Shown: positions 6,498 to 56,012 of the stretch, one piece after another
How positions within the stretch are numbered: position 1 is the first letter of the stretch
How the letters are laid out: each line of letters opens with the position of its first letter
IMG/VR virus record: IMGVR_UViG_3300045240_000051
Span: 1-64,000 of that record
Direction: 5' to 3' (one strand)
DNA from: a virus
Length of the DNA stretch: 64,000 bases
The notes under the pieces: generated by a model
Databases searched by the model: none
The model's input: the letters and a program-made list of their open reading frames with translations, nothing else
Told to the model about the DNA's origin: nothing
Translations under genes and position numbers: made by a program

Positions 6498-6610
6498 GTA
6501 TCCTTATCCGCGGGGGGCGTGCCGAACATCCAGTCGGCCAAATAATCGTCGTCCCCAAAATTGCGGGTGCGCTTTCTAAGCCTTTGATACTTCTTGCGAA
6601 GTTGGCGCAT
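6494..6610 (-). CDS. 38-aa basic small protein
   Basis: A strong AGGAGGG Shine-Dalgarno precedes the ATG at 6610 at good spacing. The peptide starts MRQLRKKYQRLRKRTR and ends acidic (FGDDDYLADWMFGTPPADK). It overlaps the end of the primase-helicase gene by 35 bases, as is common in this operon, and is the last gene of the early operon. Its TAA shares a TTAA palindrome with the stop of the convergent late gene. Function is unknown; the Arg/Lys-rich N-terminus could bind nucleic acid. Confidence 0.6.
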   Translation of the reverse strand: MRQLRKKYQRLRKRTRNFGDDDYLADWMFGTPPADKDT

Positions 6611-9605
6611 TGGAACCCTCCTGGGAAGGTACTAACCCTACCACGTCAGACTTAAGGACCTGTGCCCCCGGTCGTTCGTCCATGGGCGTATGGGCGAAAA
6701 GCTGTCCCTCCAACTCGCTGCCGGGCGGTATGGGTATCTGGATGATGGTCTCCTGGCCACCGGACAGTGTAGTACCCGCGGTAAGGTCTACTCGCTTTAC
6801 CCCTATCTCGGCCAAGAAGTGCTTCTTGAGACCGTTGAACACCGCGGTCTTTTCGTAGCTGGTGGCGTCCAGGATTTCCTCGAACTTGGTCTTGGATATA
6901 CGCACCCGCCTGTGCGTGGTGTCCCACTCCACATGAACCTGCCCAGGCCGTGGTAGTGTCTTGAGCACCGTCACCACCGGCTTACCACGCCCCAAGTGCC
7001 GTCCTGCTGTCCATATCATATTCTCCACCAGGGACTTCATCACCAGGGTAAGCACGTCGCTTACGTGTAACTCGGTATTGCTGACGGTGGAGCTACCTTT
7101 GACATGCTCCCGCTGCATGGCGAACTGGCGAAGAAGATACCTATACATTTCCCCCAGGTTGAACTGTGCCAGCCCAAGCTTGTTGGCAAACGCAGCCCCC
7201 GCTATGGTAGTGGCGCATGTGGCCGTCCAGAACCGTTCCTCACTTGCCACCTTGATCTGGTCTTCGAAATCGTTGAGAATAGCTCGCGTATCCCGTTCCA
7301 CCAGTTCCGTATTACGACCCAGCCACTCGGCGTATTGCTTACCGGCCCAGCCAAAGTTGTAATCTAGACTCTTGATAAGGTGCTCTACGTCGGACGCACG
7401 CTGCGTATCCGGACGCTTCTCCACTTCGATTTGAAACACCCTGCGAAGCTGTGCGTCCGTGTTCTTGACGTGCTTGGTTATCTCGTCCCACAGGGAAAGA
7501 TTAGACCCTACGCAAATCATCGCCTGCCAATTACCCGACTCCCTGAACGACCTATCGGAGTGCAGCTTGTTACCTTCCACACCCTCGGTCAATGACCCCA
7601 GGATATGCCGCACATTCTCAATACGCTTCTTGTCGGATATCTCGTCCCAGTATGCCGGAAGGTTTCGCAATTCTCCAAGCTTCTTCATCAAGGCCAACGG
7701 CGACGCGGTAGGCGTGTCCTTGGTCATCTTGGGATTGCCCCACACCGCGGAGCCGATACTAATGGCCGTGGACTTGTGCGCCCCCGACTGTGCGCTCATG
7801 GCATGGAGCATGCCGTTGTATTGAGCCGGTACGTGCATAAGCGGCGATCCGAATGCCACCGCTATGATCGTCTCTAGGTCCGGACGCTTCTGATCGGTGA
7901 CGATCTTGATAGCCGCGCGCCAGTTATCCATCTTGCCAGACGGCGTGTAATGCTGCTGTAGGCGTTCGTCGGCATAGCCTGCTTGGTGGTCCTGGCCATC
8001 CTTGCGGTACACCTGTCCACCGTAGGCGAAGCCTACCTGCTCGCCGCCCTCGTATATCCACCCGTACGGAACCGTGTTAATGCGCGCCTTGGCTGCGTCA
8101 AGTTTTTCTGTCCAGCTACTCATAAAAGCCCTCACTCTTTTTTCGTTCTTAACGTATGGTTTGATACGCCGGCTGCGCAAAGCTACCATAAGCTTCGTGT
8201 CCGTGGCAAGTTCAGTCTCGGGGATAGACACGCGCTGTTCCCGTTCCAAGTCCAGCGAAGTCGTAAGGTTCATTGCCGCGGGGCCGTTCTGCATCCACGG
8301 CAGGGTAAGCCTACACTCAAACAACTGCGCGTACTCGTCCTGTGTGGCGCCACTACCGATTTGCTTCTGCACTAATTCGCAAATATAGCCCGTTTCAGCA
8401 TCTACGATGTACCCGTTTGGGAGGTACATATCGGGGGGTGAAGGGGGCGCGGTGGCAGGCTGCGGTATAATTTTAGGGGTGCATAGGTTGAGGGGCGACC
8501 GGATGCTGCCGCGGAGCGGACACGCTGCACAAGATAAGCAACCTGCATTCTCGAAAGCCGCGCAGCTTGGCCACCCAATGCCATTCTCCCTGTCCGTCTT
8601 TTTACGCGCAAATAATGCTTCGGTTTCTTCCGGAGTATAAGTCTTGTACCCACGCGAAAGAACGTGGGACAGCGCGGGCCCGTCTTCAAGGAACGTACAC
8701 GCGAGTACGTCGAGCATCCATAGGCCCTGTTCATAGTTCGCTCCATGCGTCTTATAGGCATCCTGAAAGTGCGGGCATCCCTTGAACAGTCCTGTGTAAT
8801 CAAGCGGGGTGTCGTCCCGCAAACTTAAACCCTCGGCTAGGCTTTCGATCCCACCAGTAGGTATTGGTCTGGCGGGGAATTTCGACAAATCAAAAACTGG
8901 TTTTGTTACCGGGCCGGTAATAGACGTTAGCGATGGTGATGCCCGAATACTATCAAAGACCGCAAAATCATAGTCCATACCAAGAGCAGCAAGCCGTACA
9001 GGCCGTGGCGGCGCTGTTTTTCGGTTGAATGTTCCGGGAACACGAAGCACTCTTGCGCTGTCAGTGGTGATCCCGTGGTCGCATTTGAGTCCGTGAAGGC
9101 GTGTAAGTGTTTCAAGACCATCGGCGTACGGTTGCCATTCTTCTTTTGTGAGGGGCCGGTCGCTGATCCAATAGACGTGGCACCCTCCGCTTCCGGAGAG
9201 GACGAGCGCACTGGGCGCGGGTAGTTTCGCCTTCCCAACGAAGTCCGTAACGGCGCTGATTGCTTCTGCGGTTGACCCATATCCATTACCATCTTTAACG
9301 TCTACGTCGATCCATAGCGCCTTGAGCCTATGCACGTTGCGCTGGTTTCGCAACGCCGTTGCGTGGCCCTGGTATATTTTACCGGTGGCCCGCTGGCTGG
9401 ACATACAGAAGTAGATATCTTTAGCTACGCTCGGCTTGACAGCCAGCCACTGCGCCATACCCAGGAAGTCTTCCACCTTGGTGTACGGGCGCCCCCGCAT
9501 ACCAGGAGACTTGTCCGTTGTCCAGTGCAGATTGCAAAACCCCGGCTCGCCATCGGCGGGCCAGGGTAATACTCTACGCAGGAATTCAGTAATATTTCCT
9601 GCCAC
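6576..9605 (-). CDS. AEP-type primase-helicase (PrimPol plus DUF927-like helicase)
   Basis: The 1009-residue product starts at GTG behind an AAGG site. The N-terminal third shows archaeo-eukaryotic primase motifs: D100-V-D102 in LWIDVDVK, His143 in SGSGGCHVYW, and a third acidic site near C175-D-H-G...D182. Around 350 is a four-Cys cluster (C-x7-C-x2-C-x2-C) likely to bind zinc. The C-terminal half resembles DUF927-type superfamily 3-like helicases: a degenerate P-loop with GAHKST, then an acidic YWDEISDKK segment. Known relatives prime and unwind phage DNA. It is the largest early gene and probably the replicative primase-helicase. The lysine-containing P-loop lacks the usual GxGK spacing. 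Confidence 0.8.
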   Translation of the reverse strand: MAGNITEFLRRVLPWPADGEPGFCNLHWTTDKSPGMRGRPYTKVEDFLGMAQWLAVKPSVAKDIYFCMSSQRATGKIYQGHATALRNQRNVHRLKALWIDVDVKDGNGYGSTAEAISAVTDFVGKAKLPAPSALVLSGSGGCHVYWISDRPLTKEEWQPYADGLETLTRLHGLKCDHGITTDSARVLRVPGTFNRKTAPPRPVRLAALGMDYDFAVFDSIRASPSLTSITGPVTKPVFDLSKFPARPIPTGGIESLAEGLSLRDDTPLDYTGLFKGCPHFQDAYKTHGANYEQGLWMLDVLACTFLEDGPALSHVLSRGYKTYTPEETEALFARKKTDRENGIGWPSCAAFENAGCLSCAACPLRGSIRSPLNLCTPKIIPQPATAPPSPPDMYLPNGYIVDAETGYICELVQKQIGSGATQDEYAQLFECRLTLPWMQNGPAAMNLTTSLDLEREQRVSIPETELATDTKLMVALRSRRIKPYVKNEKRVRAFMSSWTEKLDAAKARINTVPYGWIYEGGEQVGFAYGGQVYRKDGQDHQAGYADERLQQHYTPSGKMDNWRAAIKIVTDQKRPDLETIIAVAFGSPLMHVPAQYNGMLHAMSAQSGAHKSTAISIGSAVWGNPKMTKDTPTASPLALMKKLGELRNLPAYWDEISDKKRIENVRHILGSLTEGVEGNKLHSDRSFRESGNWQAMICVGSNLSLWDEITKHVKNTDAQLRRVFQIEVEKRPDTQRASDVEHLIKSLDYNFGWAGKQYAEWLGRNTELVERDTRAILNDFEDQIKVASEERFWTATCATTIAGAAFANKLGLAQFNLGEMYRYLLRQFAMQREHVKGSSTVSNTELHVSDVLTLVMKSLVENMIWTAGRHLGRGKPVVTVLKTLPRPGQVHVEWDTTHRRVRISKTKFEEILDATSYEKTAVFNGLKKHFLAEIGVKRVDLTAGTTLSGGQETIIQIPIPPGSELEGQLFAHTPMDERPGAQVLKSDVVGLVPSQEGSNAPTSQEVSKA
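8906..8920. repeat. Dispersed palindrome copy 3 (N5)
   Basis: TTACC-GGGCC-GGTAA inside the primase-helicase gene, read on the minus strand as Ile-Thr-Gly-Pro-Val-Thr. Confidence 0.8.
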
Positions 9606-28753: not shown

Positions 28754-29410
28754 CTAGAACATCAGTTCTTTCCCATTCCAAGCGCAGTCGGGAATGTGGG
28801 ATTTTATGAAGGAAACTATCTCGGCATCGAGCGGGGCGTGCTTGGCGTTGTAGTCGGCATCGAGCGGGGCGAGCTTGGCCCTGTAGTCATCATAGAGCGG
28901 GGCGTGCTTGGCTTTGAAGTCGGCATCGAGCACGGTGCACTTGGCGTTGTAGTCGGCATCGAGCACGGTGAGCTTGGCGTTATAATCGGCACGTAGCGGG
29001 GCGTACTTGGCCATGTAGTCGGCATCGAGCACGGCGAGCTTGGCGTTATAATCGGCACGTAGCACGGCGAGCTTGGCGTTATAATCGGCACGTAGCACGG
29101 CGAGCTTGGCCCTGTAGTCGGCATCGAGCGGGGCGAGCTTGGCCCTGTAGTCATCATAGAGCGGGGCGCGCTTGGCCCTGTAGTCGGCATCGAGCACGGT
29201 GCACTTGGCAGCGGCCTCGCAATCTCCCAGATATATCATGTTATGAAGCCGTATGGCTATTTCATGCTTAGGCTTATGTTTTTTAATATGTACGACACGT
29301 TCCGTAACGTCATGCGACGTTTCGACAAGCGTATTGTGATGTAGTAAGCCGAATATGCCTTTTGTCGGCCCAGTGTAGTTATCTCGTCCGGGAAACATGG
29401 TATTGAGCAT
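28754..29410 (-). CDS. Hendecad-repeat protein, 218 aa
   Basis: AGGAG lies before the ATG. Residues 1-67 are a non-repetitive head; residues 68-197 are eleven full and one partial tandem copies of an 11-residue unit with consensus AKLAVLDADYN; residues 198-218 form a tail (IVSFIKSHIPDCAWNGKELMF). Eleven-residue periodicity predicts a right-handed or straight coiled coil with Leu and Tyr/Ala core positions and charged Lys/Asp faces. The copies differ mainly at Asp/Arg and Ala/Thr/Pro positions. It could be a rod, spacer or amphipathic membrane-contact protein. No known family was recognised. Confidence 0.75.
   Translation of the reverse strand: MLNTMFPGRDNYTGPTKGIFGLLHHNTLVETSHDVTERVVHIKKHKPKHEIAIRLHNMIYLGDCEAAAKCTVLDADYRAKRAPLYDDYRAKLAPLDADYRAKLAVLRADYNAKLAVLRADYNAKLAVLDADYMAKYAPLRADYNAKLTVLDADYNAKCTVLDADFKAKHAPLYDDYRAKLAPLDADYNAKHAPLDAEIVSFIKSHIPDCAWNGKELMF
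28820..29209 (-). repeat. 33-bp tandem repeats encoding 11-residue units
   Basis: About 11.8 contiguous units of 33 bp with no spacers, in frame with the 218-aa gene. Neighbouring units are nearly identical at DNA level (for example the two AKLAVLRADYN copies), indicating recent expansion by slippage or recombination. Confidence 0.9.
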
Positions 29411-29431
29411 CGTAATTGCTCCTGTTGAAAT

Positions 29432-29456
29432 GGTGGCAGAGTGTCACCCTGCCACC
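29432..29456. other. Intercistronic hairpin upstream of the hendecad gene
   Basis: GGTGGCAG and CTGCCACC pair perfectly (8 bp) around a 9-base loop, 9 bases after the stop of the 111-aa gene and 21 bases before the hendecad-gene ATG. Confidence 0.55.
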
Positions 29457-29465
29457 TTGTGTGAG

Positions 29466-29801
29466 TTACTTGCAGAAATCCACAAAGCCGCAAGCTACAC
29501 CCTTCCATTTCACGGTTTGCTTGTTAACGTCAACGGTAATGACCTGATCCTCGCCATCGCCGATGATTGAGGATATGCCATAACCCGTTTCACCTCGCCA
29601 TTGGTCTTGTGGCACAAGATGGCAGAACAGGATACGCGCAAGATAATATCCATCATCCCACCTTTTGCGCGCTTCCTGGGTGGAGAGTGCTTTCTTCACA
29701 ATAGTTGGCAGATCGCTGCCTGACCAATGTGTGTAAAGAAACACCTCGGATTTACGTGGTGCTTCGCCTGTGATTATTCTGATATTGCCTCGGTCACCCA
29801 T
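29466..29801 (-). CDS. 111-aa conserved protein (MGDRGNI family)
   Basis: The start MGDRGNIRIITGEAP, then VFLYTHWSGSDLPTIVKKAL, RWDDGYYLARILF and ETGYGISS, matches a small protein family found in phages and bacteria whose members share the order 'MGDR-N, LYTHW, LP, RWDD-YLARI, GYGIS'. Its function is not known. It sits near the promoter-proximal end of the early operon and is probably expressed early and strongly. Confidence 0.75.
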   Translation of the reverse strand: MGDRGNIRIITGEAPRKSEVFLYTHWSGSDLPTIVKKALSTQEARKRWDDGYYLARILFCHLVPQDQWRGETGYGISSIIGDGEDQVITVDVNKQTVKWKGVACGFVDFCK

Positions 29802-29817
29802 GATCTCGCTCCGAATG

Positions 29818-29832
29818 TTACCGCGCCGGTAA
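29818..29832. repeat. Dispersed palindrome copy 14 (N5) at a gene end
   Basis: TTACC-GCGCC-GGTAA. The last bases on the minus strand supply the final codons (Leu-Pro-Ala-Arg) and the TAA stop of the 45-aa gene, 16 bases before the next ATG. Confidence 0.85.
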
Positions 29833-29955
29833 GTTTTCTAGCGGCGGTCGCGCGGCGCTCAAACCCGCCGCGTTTTGCAAAACGCCTAATAGCTTGATAT
29901 GACTAAGCAATCCAAGCTCACGTGCTGGCGCATGTGAAGGCTCTTGGTTATTCAT
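29818..29955 (-). CDS. 45-aa hypothetical protein
   Basis: The ATG overlaps the stop of the promoter-proximal gene (ATGAATAA). The product (MNNQEPSHAPARELGLLSHI, then LLGVLQNAAGLSAARPP) is helical. It ends within palindrome copy 14. No good Shine-Dalgarno is seen, so it may depend on coupling. Confidence 0.5.
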   Translation of the reverse strand: MNNQEPSHAPARELGLLSHIKLLGVLQNAAGLSAARPPLENLPAR

Positions 29956-30103
29956 CACGTTGCCGTGATGCGAATACACTTTCTTGTGATCTAATTAATT
30001 CTCTTTCACATAAAGCGCAATACAAACAATCGGATACAGGCAAGCCGCTCTCAAATTGCGCGCGTAAATTCCAAATACGTTTGGATAATTCGGCGTGTTG
30101 CAT
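29948..30103 (-). CDS. 51-aa first gene of the early operon
   Basis: The product (MQHAELSKRIWNLRAQFESG, DCLYCALCERELIRSQE) carries C-x2-C-x2-C and is otherwise helical. The ATG lies exactly where transcription from the consensus promoter P1 should begin, and there is no Shine-Dalgarno, so translation may be leaderless. As the first gene of the operon it may be made very early. Function is unknown. Confidence 0.55.
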   Translation of the reverse strand: MQHAELSKRIWNLRAQFESGLPVSDCLYCALCERELIRSQESVFASRQRDE

Positions 30104-30109
30104 ACCACG

Positions 30110-30138
30110 TTAATAGTTGCACCTTTTCACCTTGTCAA
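30110..30138 (-). promoter_or_regulatory. Promoter P1 for the early operon
   Basis: TTGACA (30138-30133), a 17-base spacer starting AGGTGAAAA, and TATTAA (30115-30110) give a near-perfect sigma70 promoter reading leftward into about 23.5 kb of same-strand genes. The predicted start is about 30102-30104. Confidence 0.75.
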
Positions 30139-30185
30139 GGTAGGCACAAAAGTATATTGGATTGTGGCAATGGAACTCGCTTAAT

Positions 30186-30258
30186 GGTAAATCGCGAGCG
30201 GCCAGAGGGCATTGACCCTAGGGCAAGAACGGAGTGGTGCGACAAAGTGAAGCATGGC
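30186..30258 (+). repeat. Left arm of 73-bp inverted repeat
   Basis: It aligns without gaps to the reverse complement of 30401-30473. The outer 10 bases (GGTAAATCGC) are identical and 28 of the inner 33 match, with a 12-base identical core CAAAGTGAAGCA. The middle 30 bases have diverged. Confidence 0.75.
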
Positions 30259-30400
30259 TTCCCTGTGGTTTGTAGAAAAATGGCATTACAACTCCTAGCA
30301 TGAGTTTAGGTGTTGTTTTGTTTATATTTTTAGCAATCGTAAGTATATTTATTAATTTTCACCTTGCAACTTCTATGATTAGATTTACAACCCCTGTTTA
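30259..30400. other. AT-rich spacer between inverted-repeat arms
   Basis: This 142-base stretch is clearly AT-richer than its surroundings (for example TTTATATTTTTAG and TATATTTATTAATTTTC). It holds promoter P2 and no gene. AT-rich DNA flanked by inverted repeats would suit a replication origin or a divergent control region. Confidence 0.4.
30342..30370 (-). promoter_or_regulatory. Promoter-like element P2
   Basis: GTTGCA (or TTGCAA), a 17- (16-) base spacer beginning AGGTGAAAA, and TATACT at 30347-30342, reading leftward. It shares its spacer sequence and geometry with P1. Confidence 0.5.
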
Positions 30401-30473
30401 GCCCTGCTTCACTTTGCCGCATCACCCCGTTTTCATATAGGGCCTCTCACCCAAAAACGATTTGCGATTTACC
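30401..30473 (-). repeat. Right arm of 73-bp inverted repeat
   Basis: Partner of 30186-30258; the conserved inner core is here in the opposite orientation (TGCTTCACTTTG on the plus strand). It lies 21 bases from P3. Confidence 0.75.
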
Positions 30474-30494
30474 ACTAACCTCACAATGCCGTGA

Positions 30495-30523
30495 TTTGAA
30501 AGGTGAAAAGGTAACAATTACAA
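30495..30523 (+). promoter_or_regulatory. Promoter-like element P3, rightward
   Basis: TTTGAA, a 17-base spacer AGGTGAAAAGGTAACAA and TTACAA. The hexamers are weak, but AAGGTGAAAAGGT (13 bases) is identical to P1 in the opposite direction, suggesting a shared activator or operator. Confidence 0.45.
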
Positions 30524-30761
30524 CAACTTACTAATTAACATGACCAAATTTCGAAATTGCAACATTAAAACCTAAATAACGGACACAATTGTAATTAATT
30601 GCGGCGGCACCAAGGCGCACTGAAACGGTAGCATACTCAGTACCTTATAAATAACAGTCCTCTCTATCAGACCTTTCCCTGGCCACGCATCGCGCGTGTG
30701 GCTGCAAAACGCGGCGAGTGCGACGGCCGGCGCCGCTGGCCGCTTACTAGGAGCAACGAAA
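30524..30761 (+). other. Non-coding leader of the rightward operon
   Basis: No convincing gene. An 11-codon frame starts at 30539. GC-rich self-complementary segments lie at 30682-30702 (GCCAC...GTGGC) and 30711-30736 (GCGGCG...CGCCGC), so the 5' leader before the 65-aa gene is probably structured. Confidence 0.4.
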
Positions 30762-30959
30762 ATGACCATTAAGACCGAAATGAAGGGTGACAACCTTGTT
30801 ATCACGGTTGATTGCTCGCAAGCCGCCCGCGACGCGGCCACAGTGTCGAGCACTGGCAAGACCCGCATGCTTGGCACCACGTCAGGGTTCACGGCTCTTG
30901 CGACGCCGCATGGCATCGTCAAAGCGTCGCTGAACGTGACGGTTCCTCTGGCCGGCTGA
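30762..30959 (+). CDS. 65-aa hypothetical protein
   Basis: ATG 30762 has AGGAG at good spacing; an upstream GTG frame is rejected. The product is strand-rich (MTIKTEMKGDNLVITVDCS, GKTRMLGTTSGFTAL, VKASLNVTVPLAG), a pattern seen in short phage proteins. Likely strongly expressed from P3 and followed by a large hairpin. Role unknown. Confidence 0.7.
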   Translation: MTIKTEMKGDNLVITVDCSQAARDAATVSSTGKTRMLGTTSGFTALATPHGIVKASLNVTVPLAG

Positions 30960-30970
30960 TACCCTGACAC

Positions 30971-31012
30971 CCTGTCTGGCTTGAGGGCGACCCCGCCCCC
31001 AGGCTGGACAGG
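30971..31012 (+). terminator. Large GC-rich hairpin after the 65-aa gene
   Basis: CCTGTC pairs with GACAGG, extended by GU pairs to a stem of about 12, with an inner GGGC/GCCC stem. No T-run follows, so it may attenuate rather than end transcription, or protect the upstream mRNA. Confidence 0.5.
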
Positions 31013-31124
31013 CCGGTGCCTTCCGCGCGAAACAAACCCAAGCGAAACTTACGGTTGAGTGGTTTTTGGTTCTTAACCAGTTGTTAAGGTGACAATATTA
31101 AAAGGTAAATAAAGGAGACCCCCA

Positions 31125-31319
31125 ATGGCAAAAACCAACAGCCAAAAGTGGTATGATGATTTGGAGGCACTTATTGACAAGTATCCACATATGAAGGTGT
31201 CACAGGTAATGGTGACAACGCAACAGTGGATGGATGCAGTTTGGCGCCGGTTGGAACCCGCGGGAAAAACAAAGGTTACTATATTGAAGGACGTAAAGGG
31301 GCGTTATCGTCTTGGGTGA
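31125..31319 (+). CDS. 64-aa hypothetical protein
   Basis: AAAGGAGACC precedes the ATG. The product (MAKTNSQKWYDDLEALIDKY, KVSQVMVTTQQWMDAVW, then KGRYRLG) looks like a small alpha-beta DNA- or protein-binding unit. Family unknown. Confidence 0.65.
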   Translation: MAKTNSQKWYDDLEALIDKYPHMKVSQVMVTTQQWMDAVWRRLEPAGKTKVTILKDVKGRYRLG

Positions 31320-31384
31320 GCACTATTGAACACTCAGTTAATTAACTGCGGTGTGCTACCTTGCCAGCCTATAAGGGGTGAACC

Positions 31385-31612
31385 ATGAGTGCAATAATCC
31401 TCGGGCTGTTGTGGGCGTTGTTCTGGTGCATCGTGCTTGCGGGTGTGGTGTATCTGGTGCTGTACGGTATTAATAAGTTCATCTACGAACTGCCGGAAAA
31501 ACTTGTGCAGGGTGTATGGTTTTTGTTCTTGCTGTTGTGCATTATTGCGCTGGTGACAGTATTCGCGGGTGGCGGCGGGGGGTCTGCCACCTTTGTACCT
31601 CACTTTCGGTAA
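31385..31612 (+). CDS. 75-aa membrane protein with two transmembrane helices
   Basis: AAGGGGTG precedes the ATG. Residues 5-27 and about 43-60 are strongly hydrophobic, separated by a short charged loop (NKFIYELPEKLVQG), followed by a Gly-rich tail. It could be an accessory membrane or superinfection protein; no holin-specific evidence. Confidence 0.65.
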   Translation: MSAIILGLLWALFWCIVLAGVVYLVLYGINKFIYELPEKLVQGVWFLFLLLCIIALVTVFAGGGGGSATFVPHFR

Positions 31613-31681
31613 CCAGCCAACGCCAGGGGTTAACCATTTGATGACACCCAACCCCCCTAGTATTTGCAGGGGAGTAAGTGG

Positions 31682-31900
31682 ATGCGAGTAATTGCCTTCG
31701 ACGCGAAGAACGCCGGGAACTTAAAGACGGTGAACATTGTTACGTCTTTGCCCGCGGGCGGTCAGACCAAGACGGGCACGCAGAACACTTCTGCATTTGC
31801 CGCCGCCAATCCGAACGCACAGCCAACGTATATGGCATCCGCCTCCCCCGTAGCGGGCTTGCCAACGGTGTTCATTTCGGGGTATAGTGCGCCGAACTAA
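31682..31900 (+). CDS. 72-aa hypothetical protein
   Basis: GGGGAG lies 7 bases before ATG 31682. The sequence (MRVIAFDAKNAGNLKTVNIV, then Ala/Thr/Asn-rich stretches, ending VFISGYSAPN) is low in charge and probably strand-rich. Function unknown. Confidence 0.6.
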   Translation: MRVIAFDAKNAGNLKTVNIVTSLPAGGQTKTGTQNTSAFAAANPNAQPTYMASASPVAGLPTVFISGYSAPN

Positions 31901-33685: not shown

Positions 33686-34285
33686 ATGGACCCGTCGGAA
33701 CAAGAACTCCCCCCGCTTCAAACCCATATCGCGCAGCGCATGGCCTTGGAAGGAATTCCGGTGCGGGCCATAGCGCGTTCGCTTAAACAAGAGGCTACGT
33801 TGGTCTATGAAACGCTTGAAGCGGCGCAAGGGCAAGGCATCATCATCGACATGCCGAAAGACGACTGGGCGCCGACGGCGAACCGCGCGGACCATGCCCC
33901 CTCCTTCAAGCCGGGACTTCGTGACGATGATCTGGCGTTTACCTGCCGGCAGGTGTTCAAGCTTACGCCGCTACAGGCTGCGTTTATGGTGGCGCTATTG
34001 AAGAATTCCAGGGTGGATAAGACTAAATTTCATCTGTTGATCGAGAATATGCGCAACCGCAAGCCGGGGACTTCGCCCAGCGACAAGGACCCGACCGAGC
34101 CTAAGATGGTTGACGTGGTGATTTGCCATCTTCGAAAACGGCTTAAGAAGGTGGATCAGGCTATCGAAATAAAGACGAATTGGGGGGATGGTTACTTTAT
34201 CGAGCCTACGTGTCGGTCGTACGTGATGAAGACGTATTTTCCCAGTCCGCGGGAGCAAGACGATGCCAGTGCCGATACTGCATGA
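33686..34285 (+). CDS. Winged-helix transcriptional regulator, 199 aa
   Basis: The N-terminal region (about 10-50) looks like a helix-turn-helix (HIAQRMALEGIPVRAIARSL). The C-terminal region carries KMVDVVICHLRKRLKK followed by IEIKTNWGDGYFIEP, the recognition helix and wing of OmpR/PhoB-type winged helices. There is no receiver domain. An internal FKLTPLQAAFMVALLKNSRVD segment also matches the OmpR-like LTxxExxxLxxL start. It is the only clear regulator in the window and a candidate ligand of the TTACC palindromes, one of which lies in its own upstream region. Confidence 0.78.
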   Translation: MDPSEQELPPLQTHIAQRMALEGIPVRAIARSLKQEATLVYETLEAAQGQGIIIDMPKDDWAPTANRADHAPSFKPGLRDDDLAFTCRQVFKLTPLQAAFMVALLKNSRVDKTKFHLLIENMRNRKPGTSPSDKDPTEPKMVDVVICHLRKRLKKVDQAIEIKTNWGDGYFIEPTCRSYVMKTYFPSPREQDDASADTA

Positions 34286-35337: not shown

Positions 35338-35491
35338 TGCGTATATTAGCTGGGCGCAAAATTTATCTGACGAACAGCGCGTGTTTATATGGGGAGGCTG
35401 TTTGGGTCTTGTGTTTTTGTACGCTATTGTGGCTTGCTGGGGTGAATTAAAAGACCCGCCCGATGATTACCAACCGCCCCTTGCGGGTTAA
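35330..35491 (+). CDS. 53-aa membrane protein, end of rightward operon
   Basis: A GTG overlaps the end of the previous gene by 8 bases. The product has one transmembrane helix (GGCLGLVFLYAIVACWGEL) and a Pro-rich tail (DPPDDYQPPLAG). Its TAA shares a TTAA palindrome with the stop of the convergent terminase gene. Confidence 0.6.
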   Translation: MLDAYISWAQNLSDEQRVFIWGGCLGLVFLYAIVACWGELKDPPDDYQPPLAG

Positions 35492-36957
35492 GTCCAGCCC
35501 TTTGATTGTATGGTGTTACGTGCAGTTGGTCGTTGGACTAATCTGGTTGTTATATAGCCCACCATATTTCCGTGTACAATAAGGCTCGCGTATTGTAGGC
35601 AGTCAGCTACGTGCGAGAAGCCTTCCTTGTCGTTCTTTTCCGGGACGACGCGCAGCGCACCCGCCTTGGTTTTGGTAAACCTGTAGCCTCCAGACATAGC
35701 TCTACAGAGCCAGGGACAACCCTGCCTACTAATAATGAGCGTAGGACCGCCGTTTGTTTGCCGGCCAAGTAGGCTCTCGACTGCACGAAGGCGGGGTTCA
35801 ATGTCGTTTGTAGGTGCTGGGAAAGCAGGAAATCCAAATCGTTTAAGAGCGTCAAAACAGCTTTCCTCTGCGATGGAGCCTTTAGCAACGCCTGCTGGAT
35901 CGCCGACCACGGCGATACGTTGTCCGACGTATTTGTTCGACATGAGTTTGGGGCGAAGCGATTGGTTGACATGTTTTTCCAGTCCTACGTTGATGGCGGG
36001 TACTTCTTCGTGAACGATCAGCCTTCCAAGATGGTCGGGTTGGCAGATAAGGGACCAAGGATTACGCCCAAAGTCCTGCGCAACAATAAGAGGGTATCCG
36101 GGTATGATGCCGTGCCACTTTTTGTCCGTTTCATCCATAATGTGGAAATCGGAACGAAAGGTATTCTTGAACACAGCCATACCCGATGGGTCGTCACCGT
36201 ATTGGGCGTAGACATACCGTTTAACCCAGTCGGAGTCTTCTCCGTACATTTCGACAAAACGCTCATAGTATTTTCTCCCTTGGGCGATACGGGCAGGGTG
36301 GTCGATGGGCAATTTAATGGTTTGCTCGTTCTGCACCAGATAGGCAAGGTTTTCGGCGTTAGGGGATAAGCCGGATGGCTGGATGAATTTTTGCCAGTCA
36401 GACGGTAGATTTTCCATAAATGTGTGCCATGGGGCGAGTTCTGTGGGCATGTTGGTGTCGGCTATGATACCATGCCAAGTAGGTGTTCCACGTATGCCGC
36501 TAGGGTAGCGTCCGCATCGTCCGGATACAGGGCCAAGCACGCTAATGTCCATTTCAATGCACTCTGAGAGCCATGCGCCGGTAAGCTGCATGGAAAGAAG
36601 TCTTGCTTGATCTTCGGAGTTTTCGAGCGGGATGAAGACCCATTCACTTCGCACATCGTCAAAATTAACATGAAATGTTCCTTCGCTGACCTTCCAAATG
36701 CCCAGTCCGCCAAGCCATGTTTCGCAGTCCTTAAGCACAGTATCTTTAAGTTGTTTTAGCGTTTGGCGTACAACCGAGAAGCGTGTATAACGTTTGCCGT
36801 CTGCACCGGGGGTTTGGGCTACGGATCGGCGTAACAGTTCAACGATGGCCGCAGTGGTCTTACCGGAACCGACCGGCCCCGCGGCGATCCTCCCGAACGC
36901 TTCCGACTTCATAAAGCTGGCAAGCGTAGGGGGTGCGTTGAATGTAAATCCGCTCAT
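35488..36957 (-). CDS. terL: Terminase large subunit
   Basis: The 489-residue protein has Walker A AAGPVGSGKTTA (Gly30-Thr34), a Walker B region ending in TGAWLSECIEM, and an RNase H-like nuclease domain with VAQDFGRNPW, VVGDPAG and HVADCLQYA supplying acidic residues. This is the ATP-driven DNA packaging motor and nuclease. It is encoded opposite to the portal and capsid genes, with a metallophosphoesterase and a candidate small terminase upstream on the same strand. Confidence 0.93.
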   Translation of the reverse strand: MSGFTFNAPPTLASFMKSEAFGRIAAGPVGSGKTTAAIVELLRRSVAQTPGADGKRYTRFSVVRQTLKQLKDTVLKDCETWLGGLGIWKVSEGTFHVNFDDVRSEWVFIPLENSEDQARLLSMQLTGAWLSECIEMDISVLGPVSGRCGRYPSGIRGTPTWHGIIADTNMPTELAPWHTFMENLPSDWQKFIQPSGLSPNAENLAYLVQNEQTIKLPIDHPARIAQGRKYYERFVEMYGEDSDWVKRYVYAQYGDDPSGMAVFKNTFRSDFHIMDETDKKWHGIIPGYPLIVAQDFGRNPWSLICQPDHLGRLIVHEEVPAINVGLEKHVNQSLRPKLMSNKYVGQRIAVVGDPAGVAKGSIAEESCFDALKRFGFPAFPAPTNDIEPRLRAVESLLGRQTNGGPTLIISRQGCPWLCRAMSGGYRFTKTKAGALRVVPEKNDKEGFSHVADCLQYASLIVHGNMVGYITTRLVQRPTARNTIQSKGWT

Positions 36958-36987
36958 TTTCTATGATGTGTTGCTAGTCGCCGTTTT

Positions 36988-38091
36988 TTATTCTTGCCAC
37001 GAAACCCATACTTTTTCGCCTTGGGAGACTTTCTTGGGTTCAAGGAAGACTTCCCAGCGCGCCGTAATACCGTGCTCGGGGTGATTGAACCATAGGGCTT
37101 GAGAAGGTTTTGTGTTGGGAGCACGGAGTCCCAGGTGCCCATATTCGTTAAGACCCATGAGGGAATTATTGACAATAATCCCTGAAAGGCTGACGTATTG
37201 GTGCCAGTGTCCCATAACAAGCGTATCAAAGTGGCGCCCGATTTCCGCTTCGCTTCTACCGACTTTAAGTGCTCCACGGAGAATGGGCCCCAAAGCCCCA
37301 ATGATCCCATCGCCTCCTTTAACGCCGAGGCTATCCCCATGTGTAAGGAGATAACGGTGACCGAACACTGCAAAGTAGGCATCTGCCTCTCCTGACACTA
37401 GAAATTGAATGTTTTTGGTTTTTCGGAATTCGCGTTCCAAATTGCAGTAGATGTTCCACTCGTAGTTGGTGTGGACACGCCCCTTCATCCTAGGTTTGCG
37501 AGTAGAGCGACCATGATTACCAACCACGCAAGGAACAAACAGCTTCCCAAAACTAGACGCCATTTTGTCGAGCGAAGCTGCCAGTATGTCGGTAAGATCG
37601 TTGATGGCTTCTTGGGGGGTTCGGTCATTGGTGTTTTGCAATTCTTCATGGATATCCCCCGTAATCATGTCGCCGCCCAACATGATAACGGCTCCGGGGT
37701 ACTTTTGTGCCGATCTGCCCATATGGTTGTAGGATAGGTCAATGGTGGTGTCTACCAGTTTATGCACGCGCTTTTTGGCCACTTTAGCGTTGAATTCATT
37801 GACGCCGCCCACATCGTCCGGATTAACGACTTCCCCGTAATGCCAATCACTCCAAATAGTTACGGGGCATCCGCGTTTGCCTGATGCGCCGCCAGGACCA
37901 GTGATCCATTTCGGGGGTTCAGGGGTATGAGCAGACAAACCATAAATTTTAGTTCGTATGATTTCCTGGGTGTCATTGTCACGCCTGATCTGCCGGATGG
38001 TTTGATTGGCTGCGTTTAATTCCGCGTTCTTCTTGCGGATTATCTCCATGGCGTCGTTTAGGCGGTCGTCGTTTGTTTTTACGGGTGCCAT
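36988..38091 (-). CDS. Calcineurin-like metallophosphoesterase, 367 aa
   Basis: AAGGAAATATAACC precedes ATG 38091. A helical N-terminal region (about 1-50) is followed by the metallophosphoesterase motifs in order: WSDWHYGE (Asp82-x-His84), LGGDMITGD, VVGNHGR, LTHGDS and GHWHQ. All metal ligands are present. It sits between the two terminase genes, a place where related phages sometimes carry such an enzyme. A role in DNA end or nucleotide processing during packaging is possible but unproven. Confidence 0.85.
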   Translation of the reverse strand: MAPVKTNDDRLNDAMEIIRKKNAELNAANQTIRQIRRDNDTQEIIRTKIYGLSAHTPEPPKWITGPGGASGKRGCPVTIWSDWHYGEVVNPDDVGGVNEFNAKVAKKRVHKLVDTTIDLSYNHMGRSAQKYPGAVIMLGGDMITGDIHEELQNTNDRTPQEAINDLTDILAASLDKMASSFGKLFVPCVVGNHGRSTRKPRMKGRVHTNYEWNIYCNLEREFRKTKNIQFLVSGEADAYFAVFGHRYLLTHGDSLGVKGGDGIIGALGPILRGALKVGRSEAEIGRHFDTLVMGHWHQYVSLSGIIVNNSLMGLNEYGHLGLRAPNTKPSQALWFNHPEHGITARWEVFLEPKKVSQGEKVWVSWQE

Positions 38092-38299
38092 GGTTATATT
38101 TCCTTTCGATCTCTCGACCTTTGGGGGAAAGTTTGTACTGGCGTTGGGCTTCAAGATGGGCTCGGGAGTGATTGTAACGGTCCTGGGTTGCTAGACCCTT
38201 CGGGGAGTGGTGATACCTCGATTGCCTCGCCCTCGATAGGAGTAATTGCTTTGTCGATTTTGATTTGGTCGGCCCCCAAGTTGATTGTGATTTGGACAC
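37979..38299 (-). pseudogene. Out-of-frame basic repeat region, possible HNH gene remnant
   Basis: Read in this frame the sequence gives repeated blocks RYHHSPKGLATQDRYNHS and RQYKLSPKGREIERKYNH. Such S-P-K-G/R-Y repeats are typical of the N-terminus of phage HNH homing endonucleases. The frame overlaps the 3' end of the small-terminase gene and the 5' end of the phosphoesterase gene and has no start of its own. It may be a relic of a homing gene or chance. Confidence 0.2.
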
Positions 38300-38714
38300 G
38301 TTCTGTGCTCTGCTCTTTCTGTTTTTCGCCGCCGACGCCGGCCATGTCTGCCAGTACTTTAAGCGTTCCGGTTACACTTGACAAGGCTTCGTTCTTGTCG
38401 CCCATTCGCGCAACAACGTCCGGAAGGCGGTCTTCGATCCCGCATGCCGCTTGGAGGGCGATGCGCTGTTTGGTGGATTTGATGCTCTCCCATTCGGTGA
38501 CGGCTATCTTGAAAGCATCTTGGAAATACTTGTTTTCTTTCAATAGGTTAAGCTGGTCTTCGGTTATTTTGTATCGGGCGCAAACAACCTTTACTGGATG
38601 CAAATTAGCTGCGAGTTCGCGGACTATGGCTGCTACGGTATTCAGGGGAATGTCTGGCATTTCCGCGGGGGGGTTTACCGCGACGGTAACAAGTTCGGTT
38701 GACGGATCAGGCAT
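38151..38714 (-). CDS. terS: Candidate terminase small subunit
   Basis: AAGGAG lies before ATG 38714. The product (187 aa) has a helix-turn-helix-like region (ELAANLHPVKVVCARYKIT) followed by a long helical part with KENKYFQDAFKIAVTEWES, and an acidic C-terminus. Size, DNA-binding layout and position upstream of the large terminase on the same strand fit a small terminase, which recognises packaging DNA. No direct signature proves it. Confidence 0.6.
   Translation of the reverse strand: MPDPSTELVTVAVNPPAEMPDIPLNTVAAIVRELAANLHPVKVVCARYKITEDQLNLLKENKYFQDAFKIAVTEWESIKSTKQRIALQAACGIEDRLPDVVARMGDKNEALSSVTGTLKVLADMAGVGGEKQKEQSTERVQITINLGADQIKIDKAITPIEGEAIEVSPLPEGSSNPGPLQSLPSPS
38675..38689. repeat. 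Dispersed palindrome copy 17 (N5)
   Basis: TTACC-GCGAC-GGTAA near the start of the small-terminase gene, read as Val-Thr-Val-Ala-Val-Asn. Confidence 0.8.
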
Positions 38715-38826
38715 TTCGTAAACTCCTTCTAGTGTGCTATCATACGCTTTGCGCAAATGCAAGCGTTAGCGCCGCGTTAACGACCGTTCGATACGGTTGA
38801 CGATTATGGGATAAATCGGGTCCAGC
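38715..38826. promoter_or_regulatory. Divergent intergenic region between terminase and portal units
   Basis: This 112-base gap must hold signals for at least one of two diverging units. It contains the dyads TTTGCGCAAA and CCGT-TCGAT-ACGG, and a TATGAT hexamer on the minus strand without a good -35. No consensus promoter is obvious, so a phage- or activator-dependent promoter is possible. Confidence 0.3.
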
Positions 38827-43107: not shown

Positions 43108-43833
43108 ATGGCAACCAACATCCCGTTCCCTACTGTGGGACCAGACACCTACGACGACAACGACCTGAGTACCATTCTCACGCAGGTTACGCACGTCATT
43201 AACACTGGTACGATTACTGGTCCGGCTGGTCCCGCGGGTCCTACCGGTCCGGTAACAAGCACTGGCCCGACTGGTACGACCGGTTTGGGAAAGCTGACCA
43301 CTTTTGTGCCGATTACTGGCGGCACTGGTATGACTGGTGTGGTTTCGTATCCGGGAGCCACTGGGCCTTGGGGGTCATACACCGGTCCTACTGGCGTTAC
43401 TGGGTATACAGGCCCGGCCGGTGCGCAAGGTCCGTCTGGTCCGCAACCGGGTACAGGTAATACTGGTGCGACGGGTGGTACTGGGTATCAGGGTCCTCCG
43501 TATTTTGTTGGTCCGCAAGGTCCGACTGGCGCGACAGGTATCACAGGTCCTACTGGTGCGACAGGACCAAGTGGCCCTGCTGGTTTTGCCGGTAACACGG
43601 GTAATACTGGCCCCACAGGTCCTACTGGCGGAAGTACTACGTTCAAACCAACGATTGGTACTGGCGGGTCTGGTAATACTGGAACAACGGTTTATTGGGG
43701 TCCGCAAGGTCCAAACGGGCCTGTCCTGAATGACCAGTTTATTGCGCCGACTACCGATCCGAACGTGCGCGGTGCGGTGTGGAATAGAAGCGGGACGCTT
43801 GTGATTTCTCCGGGCGTTGTTGGCGGCGGGTAA
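43108..43833 (+). CDS. Collagen-like fibre protein C
   Basis: Third tandem paralogue. The head ([20 protein letters not shown]) resembles those of A and B. The collagen region is interrupted by non-triplet segments (for example [20 protein letters not shown]), and the C-terminus [19 protein letters not shown] aligns with A and B. Three related but unequal copies could make hetero- or homotrimers. Confidence 0.85.
43241..43255. repeat. Degenerate palindrome (CTACC-GGTCC-GGTAA)
   Basis: One mismatch from the TTACC/GGTAA family, inside fibre gene C (Pro-Thr-Gly-Pro-Val-Thr). Chance is likely here because GGTCCTACTGGT-type repeats are frequent. Confidence 0.3.
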
Positions 43834-47092: not shown

Positions 47093-47287
47093 ATGTTGTC
47101 CAAGGTACACGTCAAGTTTGGTGATAATAACTTGTCTTATAACGAGCAATGCAAGTTGCTGTTCGAATTTGAGAAATTTGCCCGTGTCCTATATCCTGAT
47201 AAAGGGGTGGAAATTTTCATGGATCGTATGGGGGATGATAGTAAGCTTAGGGTCAAAATGACACCTGAACAAAGGAATACGCTGTAG
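47093..47287 (+). CDS. 64-aa protein directly before the radical SAM gene
   Basis: The frame begins 1 base after the methyltransferase stop and its TAG overlaps the GTG of the radical SAM gene. The product (MLSKVHVKFGDNNLSYNEQC, KLLFEFEKFARVLYPDKG) is alpha-beta and charged. It may be an accessory subunit, a peptide-recognition element or even a substrate of the radical SAM enzyme. No known motif. Confidence 0.65.
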   Translation: MLSKVHVKFGDNNLSYNEQCKLLFEFEKFARVLYPDKGVEIFMDRMGDDSKLRVKMTPEQRNTL

Positions 47288-48402
47288 TGACTGTTATATC
47301 GCCGTATGATCTTGAGTTAGACGGCACCAAGGTTGGTTGGTGGAAAGATCGCGTGGAAGCATGGGAGCGCGGCGAGAAGTTTGCTCCTATTACAATGGAT
47401 GTAGCCTGGACCCGCCAGTGCAATGCTGCGTGCGTGTTTTGTTATGCCACGTTACAAGCTAGTCAAGGGGGCAAGATTGAGAAGAAGCACGCGTTTGATT
47501 TCTTGGATGATTGTGCCGAAATTGGTGTGCGGGGTGTGTCGCTTATCAGCGATGGCGAGAGCACTATTGTCCCATGGTTTGCCGACAGCATAGAGCATAT
47601 GGGGTTGCTTGGACTGAAAGCGGGTTGTAGTACTAACGGTGTACGGTTGAAGCGTCCGTTGCTGGAACGTATCCTCCCCCATATGACCTACTTGCGGTTT
47701 AATTTTAGTGCCGCGGATCAACCGCGGTATTCTGCGATCATGGGGTTGCAGAAGCGAGACTACGAACAGGTGCTGCAAAACGTTAAAGACGCTATGGAGA
47801 TAAAGCGGCGCGACAAGCTGCCGGTTACGATAAACATACAAATGGTCACCATGCCATCGTCGTTCGATCAAATTTTGCCGTTGGCGCGATTGTGCAGAGA
47901 CGTATTGCGCCCGGATTATTTGATCTATAAGCATTGCTCAAGTGATAGCGAGAACCAGCTAGGTATTGACTATTCTGAATATTCCAAGTGCCATGATGAT
48001 TTGCGCCGGGCAGAGGCTATGGGCGACGATGAATTTCGTGTTGCCGTTAAGTGGTCCAAGATAGAGAACGAGGGTAAGCGGGAATATTCAAAGTGTTTCG
48101 GGGCACCGTTCATCTTACAAATGAGCGGTAATGGTCTGATTGCCCCCTGCGGTATGCTGTTCAACAGAGAGTATGCTAAATTTCACATCGGCAACATTAT
48201 AAATGAGCGTTGGCGGGATATATTCAATTCTGATCGCTACTGGGAAGTTATTCGGTATCTGGCTAGTGACCAGTTTAACCCACAGAAGCGGTGCGGTGCC
48301 AACTGTTTGCAGCATCATACCAATGACTGGCTTTACAAGTTTAACCAGGGGCGCGTGCAGCTTCCGTCTTCTTCCATGCCAACCCACCCGGAGTTCATTT
48401 AA
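47287..48402 (+). CDS. Radical SAM enzyme with SPASM-like C-terminus
   Basis: Cys45-x3-Cys49-x2-Cys52 (CNAACVFC) binds the SAM-cleaving iron-sulfur cluster. The following SLISDGESTI and STNGVRL segments fit the TIM barrel. The C-terminal region contains CFGAPF, APCGMLF, a FHIGNI segment and CGANC, matching an auxiliary-cluster (SPASM/twitch) domain. Such enzymes modify peptides, sugars or small molecules by radical chemistry. The gene lies inside the sugar-decoration cassette. Confidence 0.9.
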   Translation: MTVISPYDLELDGTKVGWWKDRVEAWERGEKFAPITMDVAWTRQCNAACVFCYATLQASQGGKIEKKHAFDFLDDCAEIGVRGVSLISDGESTIVPWFADSIEHMGLLGLKAGCSTNGVRLKRPLLERILPHMTYLRFNFSAADQPRYSAIMGLQKRDYEQVLQNVKDAMEIKRRDKLPVTINIQMVTMPSSFDQILPLARLCRDVLRPDYLIYKHCSSDSENQLGIDYSEYSKCHDDLRRAEAMGDDEFRVAVKWSKIENEGKREYSKCFGAPFILQMSGNGLIAPCGMLFNREYAKFHIGNIINERWRDIFNSDRYWEVIRYLASDQFNPQKRCGANCLQHHTNDWLYKFNQGRVQLPSSSMPTHPEFI

Positions 48403-49061
48403 TGTGGTTTATGCCAACATACGGCCGTCCGCACCACCTGGAGCAGTTGGAGGCTTCCCCTGGCGGTATGCCGCCTTACGACGATTTTGTACTTCTGCTT
48501 ACCGAGTCTGATCCTAAGTTGGTGGGGTATGACAAATGGCCGTACCGAAAAATGATACGGCCTGCGCGTTCGCTTGGGGACCAACTCAGGTATATATTAC
48601 CGTGTTTCCCTAGAGAACGTAGCTACGGTATTTTGACAGACGATCATTACCCGCAGACCAAATACTGGTGGAATTTTATGGAAACGGCCGCTGGGGACCG
48701 GTTGCTTGCTATTGCTACGGCACCGGGGAGTACTGCGTCGTTGCCAGGAGAACCGTGTTTTGGTGGTGGCCTTGTGCGGGCTATGGGCAGCATAATGCCG
48801 CCGAAAGATGTGCATCACAACTCCACCGATGTTGTATGGAGAGAAATTGGGGATGCGTTTAAGTTGATTACGGTTGTTCCGGAAGCTGTTATTTTGGAAA
48901 AGCACCCTATACACGGCACCGCGGAAATGGACGATACTTACAAGCGGGGGGCGTTTAACCCGATGTTTAAGGACAATGATCCGGCCAACCACCACAAGTG
49001 GTCTGTCAGTAAGGCCCATGACGATATGTATACACGAATTAAAGTGTTTCTCGAAAATTAA
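48402..49061 (+). CDS. Putative glycosyltransferase, 219 aa
   Basis: The ATG overlaps the radical SAM stop. MWFMPTYGRPHHLEQL at the start and YGILTDDHYPQTKYWW in the middle (DD-x-H as metal and sugar-nucleotide site) resemble a GT-A type transferase, with a late HHNSTDVVWREIGDAF block. It is the last gene of the cassette. Acceptor unknown. Confidence 0.7.
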   Translation: MWFMPTYGRPHHLEQLEASPGGMPPYDDFVLLLTESDPKLVGYDKWPYRKMIRPARSLGDQLRYILPCFPRERSYGILTDDHYPQTKYWWNFMETAAGDRLLAIATAPGSTASLPGEPCFGGGLVRAMGSIMPPKDVHHNSTDVVWREIGDAFKLITVVPEAVILEKHPIHGTAEMDDTYKRGAFNPMFKDNDPANHHKWSVSKAHDDMYTRIKVFLEN

Positions 49062-54674: not shown

Positions 54675-56012
54675 ATGCGTTTTGAAGTTGCCGACGAAGA
54701 AAGAGTTCTCGGGCGTCTAAATCAGGTTGTTGGCGACAGCCTACAGCATGAGATTGATTATTCGGAGTGGTTGCAGAAGGGCGAAGTACTTAGCGCGGTA
54801 TTTTTAACAGTTGATGCTGGCACGGCGACTGTTAGCAACCAGACTTATTTTCTAAACCAGAAAGCTGTTAGGTTTTTTCTTAACGGCGGGACACTTGGCG
54901 ATCAGTTCAATATTATAGTGTTTGCCACCACGTCGTTTGGCCAAAGCCGGTATGATAGTATTCATGTTGGTGTTGAAACGAATGGTGGTGCCGTTGTTTT
55001 GTCTTCTAACCAGCAGCTTATGTTGTCAATACAGGGGAATACGGGGCCCACTGGTATCGGTCCTACTGGTCCGTCGGGTGGTCCTACTGGTGCAACTGGT
55101 TCGTCTGTTACTGGTCCTACTGGCACGACCGGTAACACCGGTTCTACTGGGTGCACAGGAAACACTGGCCCTACTGGTGCGCAGGGCATACAGGGTATTC
55201 AAGGCGTAACTGGCCCCACGGGTAACACAGGAAACACTGGCCCTACTGGTGCGCAGGGCATACAGGGTATTCAAGGCGTAACTGGTTCTACGGGGAACAC
55301 CGGTAATACCGGTCCCACTGGGAGCATCGGTAACGCGGGCCCGACCGGTGCACAGGGCGTAACTGGCCCCACCGGTAACACCGGTCCCACTAGTAATACT
55401 GGTCCTACCGGTGCACAGGGCGCAGCGAGCACAGTTACTGGCCCCACTGGTAACACCGGTAACACCGGCCCTACTGGTGCGCAAGGTAACGCTGGGGCAG
55501 CGAGCACGGTTACTGGTCCTACCGGGTATACTGGAAATACGGGGAATACTGGCGCTGCTGGTCCTGCTGCCAATACCGGTGCAACAGGTCCGACAGGACC
55601 AATCGGCAATACAGGTAACACTGGTAACACTGGTAACACTGGCCCAACCGGGTTAAATAATAGCGGTACAGGGTGGGTTCCTACAGATCAAAGTGGGGCG
55701 GGTTTATCATTTACAAATGCTACTGGTACATATTCCCAAATTGGTAATTGGGTTTTTGTGGCAGGCGCGCTAACTTATCCTTCTACTGTTGACACCAGCG
55801 CGTCTAAAATATCGTTACCTGTTGCGGTGCCTAATACTTTATACGCTGCTGTCCCAGGGGTTTCTACTAATGCTTCTTCTGGCAGTGAAATAAGGGCGGT
55901 TCAAAATTCTTCCACCGCGGCGTTTGTGCTTATTGCTAGTGGCGCTGCGCTTACCAATGCTAATCTTACTAGCAGAGCAATAGAGTTTGCGTTGGCGTTT
56001 CCAGTGAGTTAA
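54675..56012 (+). CDS. Collagen-like fibre protein E with receptor-type C-terminus, 445 aa
   Basis: Residues 1-110 form a domain also present in the following tailspike ([38 protein letters not shown]). Residues about 115-325 are collagen triplets, partly in larger repeats of [16 protein letters not shown]. The C-terminal 110 residues ([31 protein letters not shown]) resemble distal fibre domains that contact receptors. Likely a long thin receptor fibre using the shared N-terminal domain for attachment. Confidence 0.82.

Follow-up and report, generated by a model that had tools for sequence, protein, structure and literature searches.

What role does a symmetrical stretch of adenine- and thymine-rich (AT-rich) DNA play between the two divergent operons of a tailed soil phage? 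The stretch in question occupies positions 30110-30523 of a 64,000-base window, the whole of the DNA analyzed here, which corresponds to bases 1-64000 of the 68,211-base IMG/VR virus record IMGVR_UViG_3300045240_000051 and encodes a terminase, portal, major head protein, family A DNA polymerase, helicases, and a primase-helicase. An initial annotation, made from the letters alone, described a divergent control region and offered a replication origin, a lytic switch, or a pair of divergent small RNAs as possible functions. On the basis of sequence comparison, we consider it very probable that this ~68-kb tailed phage begins its bidirectional (theta-type) replication in the region, with the primase-helicase encoded at 6576-9605 as the most likely starter. 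The origin option is strongly supported by the AT maximum of the genome, a switch in guanine-cytosine (GC) skew, an architecture conserved in relatives, and the homology of the primase-helicase to helicases of initiator type, all of which, like the repeat itself, are direct results of computation.

The initial annotation had reported two 73-bp arms that align without gaps and are identical in their outer 10 bases and in 28 of the inner 33, and realignment of 30186-30258 with the reverse complement of 30401-30473 bore this out (45/73 identical, ungapped; outer 10/10, middle 7/30, inner 28/33). The "73-bp arm" is better seen as two nested repeats with a common centre at 30329.5 (30181-30195/30464-30478 and 30228-30259/30400-30431). 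In a gap-free scan of the window, the inner pair was the top spaced inverted repeat with a score of 22, the next best scoring 14.5, and 20 shuffles gave top scores of 12-15; the inverted repeat is therefore not a chance occurrence. Besides the inner pair, three mirrored pairs are arranged about nearly one centre, giving a nested mirror symmetry across the 960-bp divergent interval with the following components:

29863..29879, plus strand: outermost mirrored block in the leftward leader, CCGCCGCGTTTTGCA; GACGCGGCAA-type leaders are similar in relatives
30121..30133, minus strand: left AAGGTGAAAAGGT copy, flanked by TTGACA and TATTAA in the leftward reading; candidate element of a promoter or operator, the promoter being read by eye
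30181..30195, plus strand: left outer block TTAATGGTAAATCGC, concentric with the inner arms
30228..30259, plus strand: left inner arm, containing CAAAGTGAAGCA; candidate initiator-binding site, score 22 against a shuffle maximum of 15
30259..30400, no strand: AT-rich core of 142 bp, 69% AT; candidate DNA unwinding element
30356..30369, minus strand: third copy (TTGCAAGGTGAAAA) of the AAGGTGAAAAGGT-type element, within the AT-rich core
30400..30431, minus strand: right inner arm, complementary to the left arm at 28/32 (88% over 32 nt)
30464..30478, minus strand: right outer block GCGATTTACCACTAA, partner of the left outer block
30500..30512, plus strand: right AAGGTGAAAAGGT copy, running on into AACAATTACAAC
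30703..30719, minus strand: outermost mirrored block in the rightward leader, TGCAAAACGCGGCG, forming a TGCAAAACGCGGCG-like pair with 29863-29879

Small peptides readable by eye within the arms show no conservation and were dropped.

A theta-type origin is expected to carry an AT-rich unwinding element, and the core between the arms, whose length and AT-richness are as initially annotated, provides one. Of all 60-bp stretches of the 68-kb genome, the one that begins at 30300 is the richest in AT, and among 100-bp stretches the maximum is centred on 30334, 4 bp off the repeat centre. Such an origin should also coincide with a switch in base composition that is independent of coding strand and is matched about half a genome away, as was found here. 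GC skew at four-fold degenerate sites was modeled jointly on coding strand and replichore, with genomes lacking end repeats taken as circular by assumption. For the window genome, the replichore term was significant (z=7.2, or z=4.4 in a gene bootstrap in which whole genes were resampled) and the coding-strand term was ~0; the best-fit origin lay 0.7 kb away from the repeat centre, and the best-fit terminus came at 0.51 of the genome. Given that divergent transcription coincides with the site, the switch could in principle stem from transcription alone and be uninformative on replication. We find this distinctly improbable in view of the near-zero coding-strand term and of the minus-strand terminase, phosphoesterase-like, and neighboring genes, which retain the right-replichore sign and therefore do not behave as expected from a transcription effect. 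When terminase four-fold skew alone was compared between the two orientations of this gene across genomes, the outcome was mixed.

To what extent the putative origin is shared was assessed in related phages. No related record was found at the DNA level in the INPHARED phage collection; at the protein level, IMG/VR contains many relatives, and 36 further related records, mostly 45-70 kb, were fetched and the conserved genes mapped on them. Relatives keep the same layout, with minus-strand replication genes on the left, followed by the divergent region and then by rightward genes, although some lineages carry the terminase cluster in the opposite orientation. In the window, terminase, phosphoesterase-like, and neighboring genes form one minus-strand block (35488-38762), which is inverted in some relatives (G003-G007, G009, and G019) and not in others. 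The genes that border the divergent interval are:

29466..29801, minus strand: first leftward gene, 111 amino acids, function unassigned; heads the replication-side operon
30762..30959, plus strand: first rightward gene, 65 amino acids; homologues stand at the head of the rightward operon in relatives

In relatives, the homologues of this rightward gene are preceded, at an equal distance, by nested inverted repeats of unrelated sequence. The top genome-wide spaced inverted repeat falls within the divergent region in 25/31 genomes (window phage included), a region that amounts to 8-28% of each genome in this count, and in 22/24 genomes with a strong repeat no more than 500 bp separates the repeat centre from the AT-richest 100 bp, where ~0.4 genomes would be expected. 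Pooling of 27 genomes gave a replichore z of 12-13 with a peak no more than 1 kb from the site, and nine later-added genomes alone gave z=4.5 at the site. Taking the lowest point of raw cumulative skew gave agreement in many genomes and disagreement in the G003-G007/G009 group, and the four-fold-site model was used in its place. Absence of the symmetry from related phages, which the initial annotation had named as grounds for abandoning its reading, was thus looked for, and the architecture was instead found to recur.

The sequence of the region is not shared in the same way. Comparison of the control region with relatives at the DNA level gave nothing beyond two short weak matches (L012 and L014), and an exact search of IMG/VR with the inner arm gave no match. 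Conserved mirror geometry can expose an origin without any sequence conservation. The same results bear on the proposal of a divergent small RNA pair or structured leaders: the arms could fold, and a G+C-rich leader precedes the first gene on each side, but arm sequences are not conserved between phages and no Rfam family was matched (best score 18.4 bits; cut-off 117), leaving this option of the initial annotation unsupported and, in our judgment, very improbable. A lysis/lysogeny switch would suit the geometry of a divergent control region, yet tyrosine integrase is absent from the window genome and was found in 1/16 group genomes searched, and we regard such a switch as scarcely credible. 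The sole tyrosine-integrase match among those 16 genomes is G007:2474-2971.

Further indication of an origin comes from iterons. Many relatives carry, within the region, 5-9 copies of one phage-specific 7-9-bp word that is nearly absent from the rest of the genome, as exemplified by the following counts (copies in region/genome):

AAATGTCC: 9/9 in G006, 7/7 in G007, 8/8 in G009
ATGGTGGGG: 7/7 in G002
CGTAACTAC: 7/7 in G014
AGCATTTC: 7/8 in G013
ATTAGCTG: 6/7 in G005

The copies often form two sets of opposite orientation on either side of the centre, an arrangement that is partly a product of how the centre is chosen. Iterons of the type found in phage-inducible chromosomal islands (PICI) and Staphylococcus aureus pathogenicity islands (SaPI) are present in relatives such as G002, G005, G006, G007, G009, and G014; the window phage has one long arm per side and five loose TTCACYTTKYM sites. 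This motif, a consensus picked post hoc, occurs 7 times in the window, with 5 occurrences within 382 bp where 0.5 would be expected:

30126..30136, plus strand; 30241-30251, minus strand; 30358-30368, plus strand; 30408-30418, plus strand; 30497-30507, minus strand: TTCACYTTKYM sites, a loose iteron-like set

Which protein would act at these sites? The candidate is as follows:

6576..9605, minus strand: archaeo-eukaryotic primase (AEP-type) fused to a DUF927 helicase, 1009 amino acids; candidate self-loading replication initiator

The protein matches PF06048 (1.2e-11), and a profile of its family, when compared with solved proteins, retrieved only Cch of the staphylococcal cassette chromosome mec (SCCmec; 5dgk, 1.1e-16) and SaPI Rep (8tch, 3.5e-15). 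A predicted structure, used at the level of domains only given its predicted template-modeling score (pTM) of 0.45, gave a concordant ranking in Foldseek, with 5dgk Cch (1.5e-17) and the SaPIbov1 replication initiator (1.2e-14) first and phage PrimPol among the matches of the primase half. A helicase homologous to the SaPI Rep and Cch initiators is thus encoded. A peptide search with the window phage's own primase-helicase did not find close relatives, and the family in related phages was reached via alignment. Five phages have AAATGTC iterons in common, and their primase-helicases are more alike than they are to those of relatives with other iterons (within/between ratio 1.40, rank 1/56), compared with ratios of 0.91-1.10 for other replication-side proteins. 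Taken separately, the domains differ: iteron type is not associated with the primase half (0.98), but the ratio is 1.48-1.58 for the helicase parts and 1.86 for the C-terminal domain, the helicase/C-terminal half standing at rank 1/56. Across 26 genomes, a Mantel test of iteron sharing against C-terminal identity, given the N-terminal half, yielded r=0.22 (p=0.0005). Covariation of iteron type with the helicase/C-terminal half lends support to an initiator role, and is not proof of it. We see about an even chance that iteron and initiator helicase are swapped between phages as a matched pair, apart from the fused primase domain.

The same covariation helps in weighing a divergent operator-promoter, in which the mirrored sites would serve one regulator of both transcription units and have no replication role. 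The region lies exactly between the divergent operons, AAGGTGAAAAGGT can fit between -35 and -10 hexamers, and a conserved winged-helix gene is situated 3 kb off:

33686..34285, plus strand: winged-helix protein (Trans_reg_C-like), rival DNA-binding candidate; 2.1e-5, just under the Pfam cut-off; present in 61 records

Resemblance in the winged-helix protein, however, does not follow iteron type (within/between 1.14, or 1.05 without the closest pair), and the genome AT maximum and the coding-independent skew switch would be left unexplained. The oppositely directed promoters of the initial annotation fared unevenly: a leftward TTGACA-17-TATTAA promoter is readable from 30138, but a consensus scan returned 2 promoter-like sites against 1.6 expected, which is the level of chance. 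A purely regulatory role is accordingly unlikely. Somewhat less than evenly probable, and a refinement compatible with the origin reading, is an origin and promoter site in one, in which the initiator would also repress or activate the divergent promoters. The two-part arms, with promoter-type outer elements nested around phage-private inner arms, favor such a combination. The suggestion of two functional parts per arm is in itself plausible, given that the outer AAGGTGAAAAGGT element recurs in relatives with other iterons and the inner arm is private to the window phage. The relatives G006, G007, G009, and G020 have a AAGGTGAAAAGGT-like element next to the origin, and at least three of these four differ in their iterons. 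A AACAATTACAAC-bearing element likewise marks the right edge of their origins, the match being closer in G007 and G020 than in G006 and G009. A promoter or regulator function is the likelier one for the outer AAGGTGAAAAGGT copies, with the inner arms as the phage-specific initiator sites.

Under the preferred reading of a bidirectional origin, initiation would take place at the point of divergence between the two main transcription units. The primase-helicase would most likely bind the mirrored arms, one assembly per arm, melt the AT-rich core (30259-30400), and load in opposite directions, and the forks would then travel leftward and rightward until they met roughly half a genome from the origin. 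We infer the binding to the arms, the loading as two assemblies, and a role for the outer AAGGTGAAAAGGT elements in the divergent promoters and not in initiation. Several observations weigh against this reading. The top repeat lies outside the divergent region in 6/31 genomes, the replichore term is slightly negative in 6/27, and the skew signal is absent in some (G003, G005, G032, G034, and others). Compared with the 5-9 exact copies of relatives, the iterons of the window phage are few and loose, each inner arm having a single site. The identity of the initiator does not follow from skew or AT-richness, the structural model of the primase-helicase is modest in overall confidence, and polymerase and SNF2-helicase identity keep some partial correlation with iteron sharing. 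Finally, the candidate origin (30.1-30.5 kb) is ~20 kb from the primase-helicase gene, whereas SaPI origins are located directly downstream of rep.

Other features of these genomes were observed in passing. Directly left of the candidate origin, a minus-strand gene (28754-29410) encodes a 218-amino-acid protein made up mostly of ~11-residue repeats (LDADYNAKLAPL...), corresponding to a coding tandem array at 28.8-29.2 kb. Three plus-strand genes (43108-43833, 54675-56012, and 56014-57888) encode proteins with long collagen-like G-x-T repeats that are probably virion fibres, and a radical-SAM-like protein (47287-48402, plus strand; CxxxCxxC motif seen by eye) was present in 0/23 relatives tested. 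DNA polymerase I is divided into two open frames in G002 (29393-31733, with a ~460-bp gap) and G015 (47214-49039, with a stop), which may reflect an inserted element or a split polymerase.

Among cultured phages, the distant relative Pseudomonas phage Rollin carries ten AAAGGTAG copies in its genome, nine of which fall in the first 497 bases (L382:1-497) along with strong 25-27-bp inverted repeats, and this segment is probably an unannotated origin. In Rhizobium phage RHph_TM27A, repeat and iterons are weak and the skew minimum is near its divergent region, which is neither confirmation nor refutation. The primase-helicase homologue of the latter phage (L380:42248-45331) is labeled "putative integrase protein", very likely a misannotation. 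If correct, our reading supplies a large family of uncultivated soil phages with a concrete origin and initiator that can be put to the test, and it ties the replicon type of phage satellites to ordinary phages. That link has implications for the source of satellite replicons and for how phages in one cell avoid firing each other's origins.

How, then, does the putative origin compare with known systems? The alpha protein of phage P4 is likewise a fused primase-helicase and itself recognizes short iterons; compared by description only, P4 differs from the window phage in needing a distant second repeat region (crr). In lambdoid phages, O is a separate origin-binding protein with iterons inside its gene. 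Lambdoid origins (PMC7466680) are similar to the present one in having iterons beside an AT-rich element, and differ in being without a DUF927 helicase. With SCCmec cch/cch2 modules (PMC7581432), the likeness lies in Cch (5dgk), the best structural and sequence match, and the C-terminal domain of Cch2 binds a repeat-bearing putative origin (PMC7581432); these modules, however, belong to chromosomal cassette elements with a different primase arrangement. PICI/SaPI origins with Rep initiators (PMC6092414; PMC7581432) resemble those of the phages studied here in their organization and share a self-loading DUF927-type helicase, SaPIbov1 Rep being among the top structural matches. The window phage differs from them in having a full tailed-phage genome rather than that of a satellite, its own terminase, portal, and major head protein being at odds with the dependence on a helper phage that is a PICI trait. 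It differs further in the fusion of an AEP-type primase to the helicase, in the placement of the origin ~20 kb from the initiator gene rather than immediately 3' of it, and in strong mirror symmetry and a position between divergent operons. By analogy, the putative origin of the window phage may work like a PICI origin, with these differences, in a phage that is not itself classed as a PICI.
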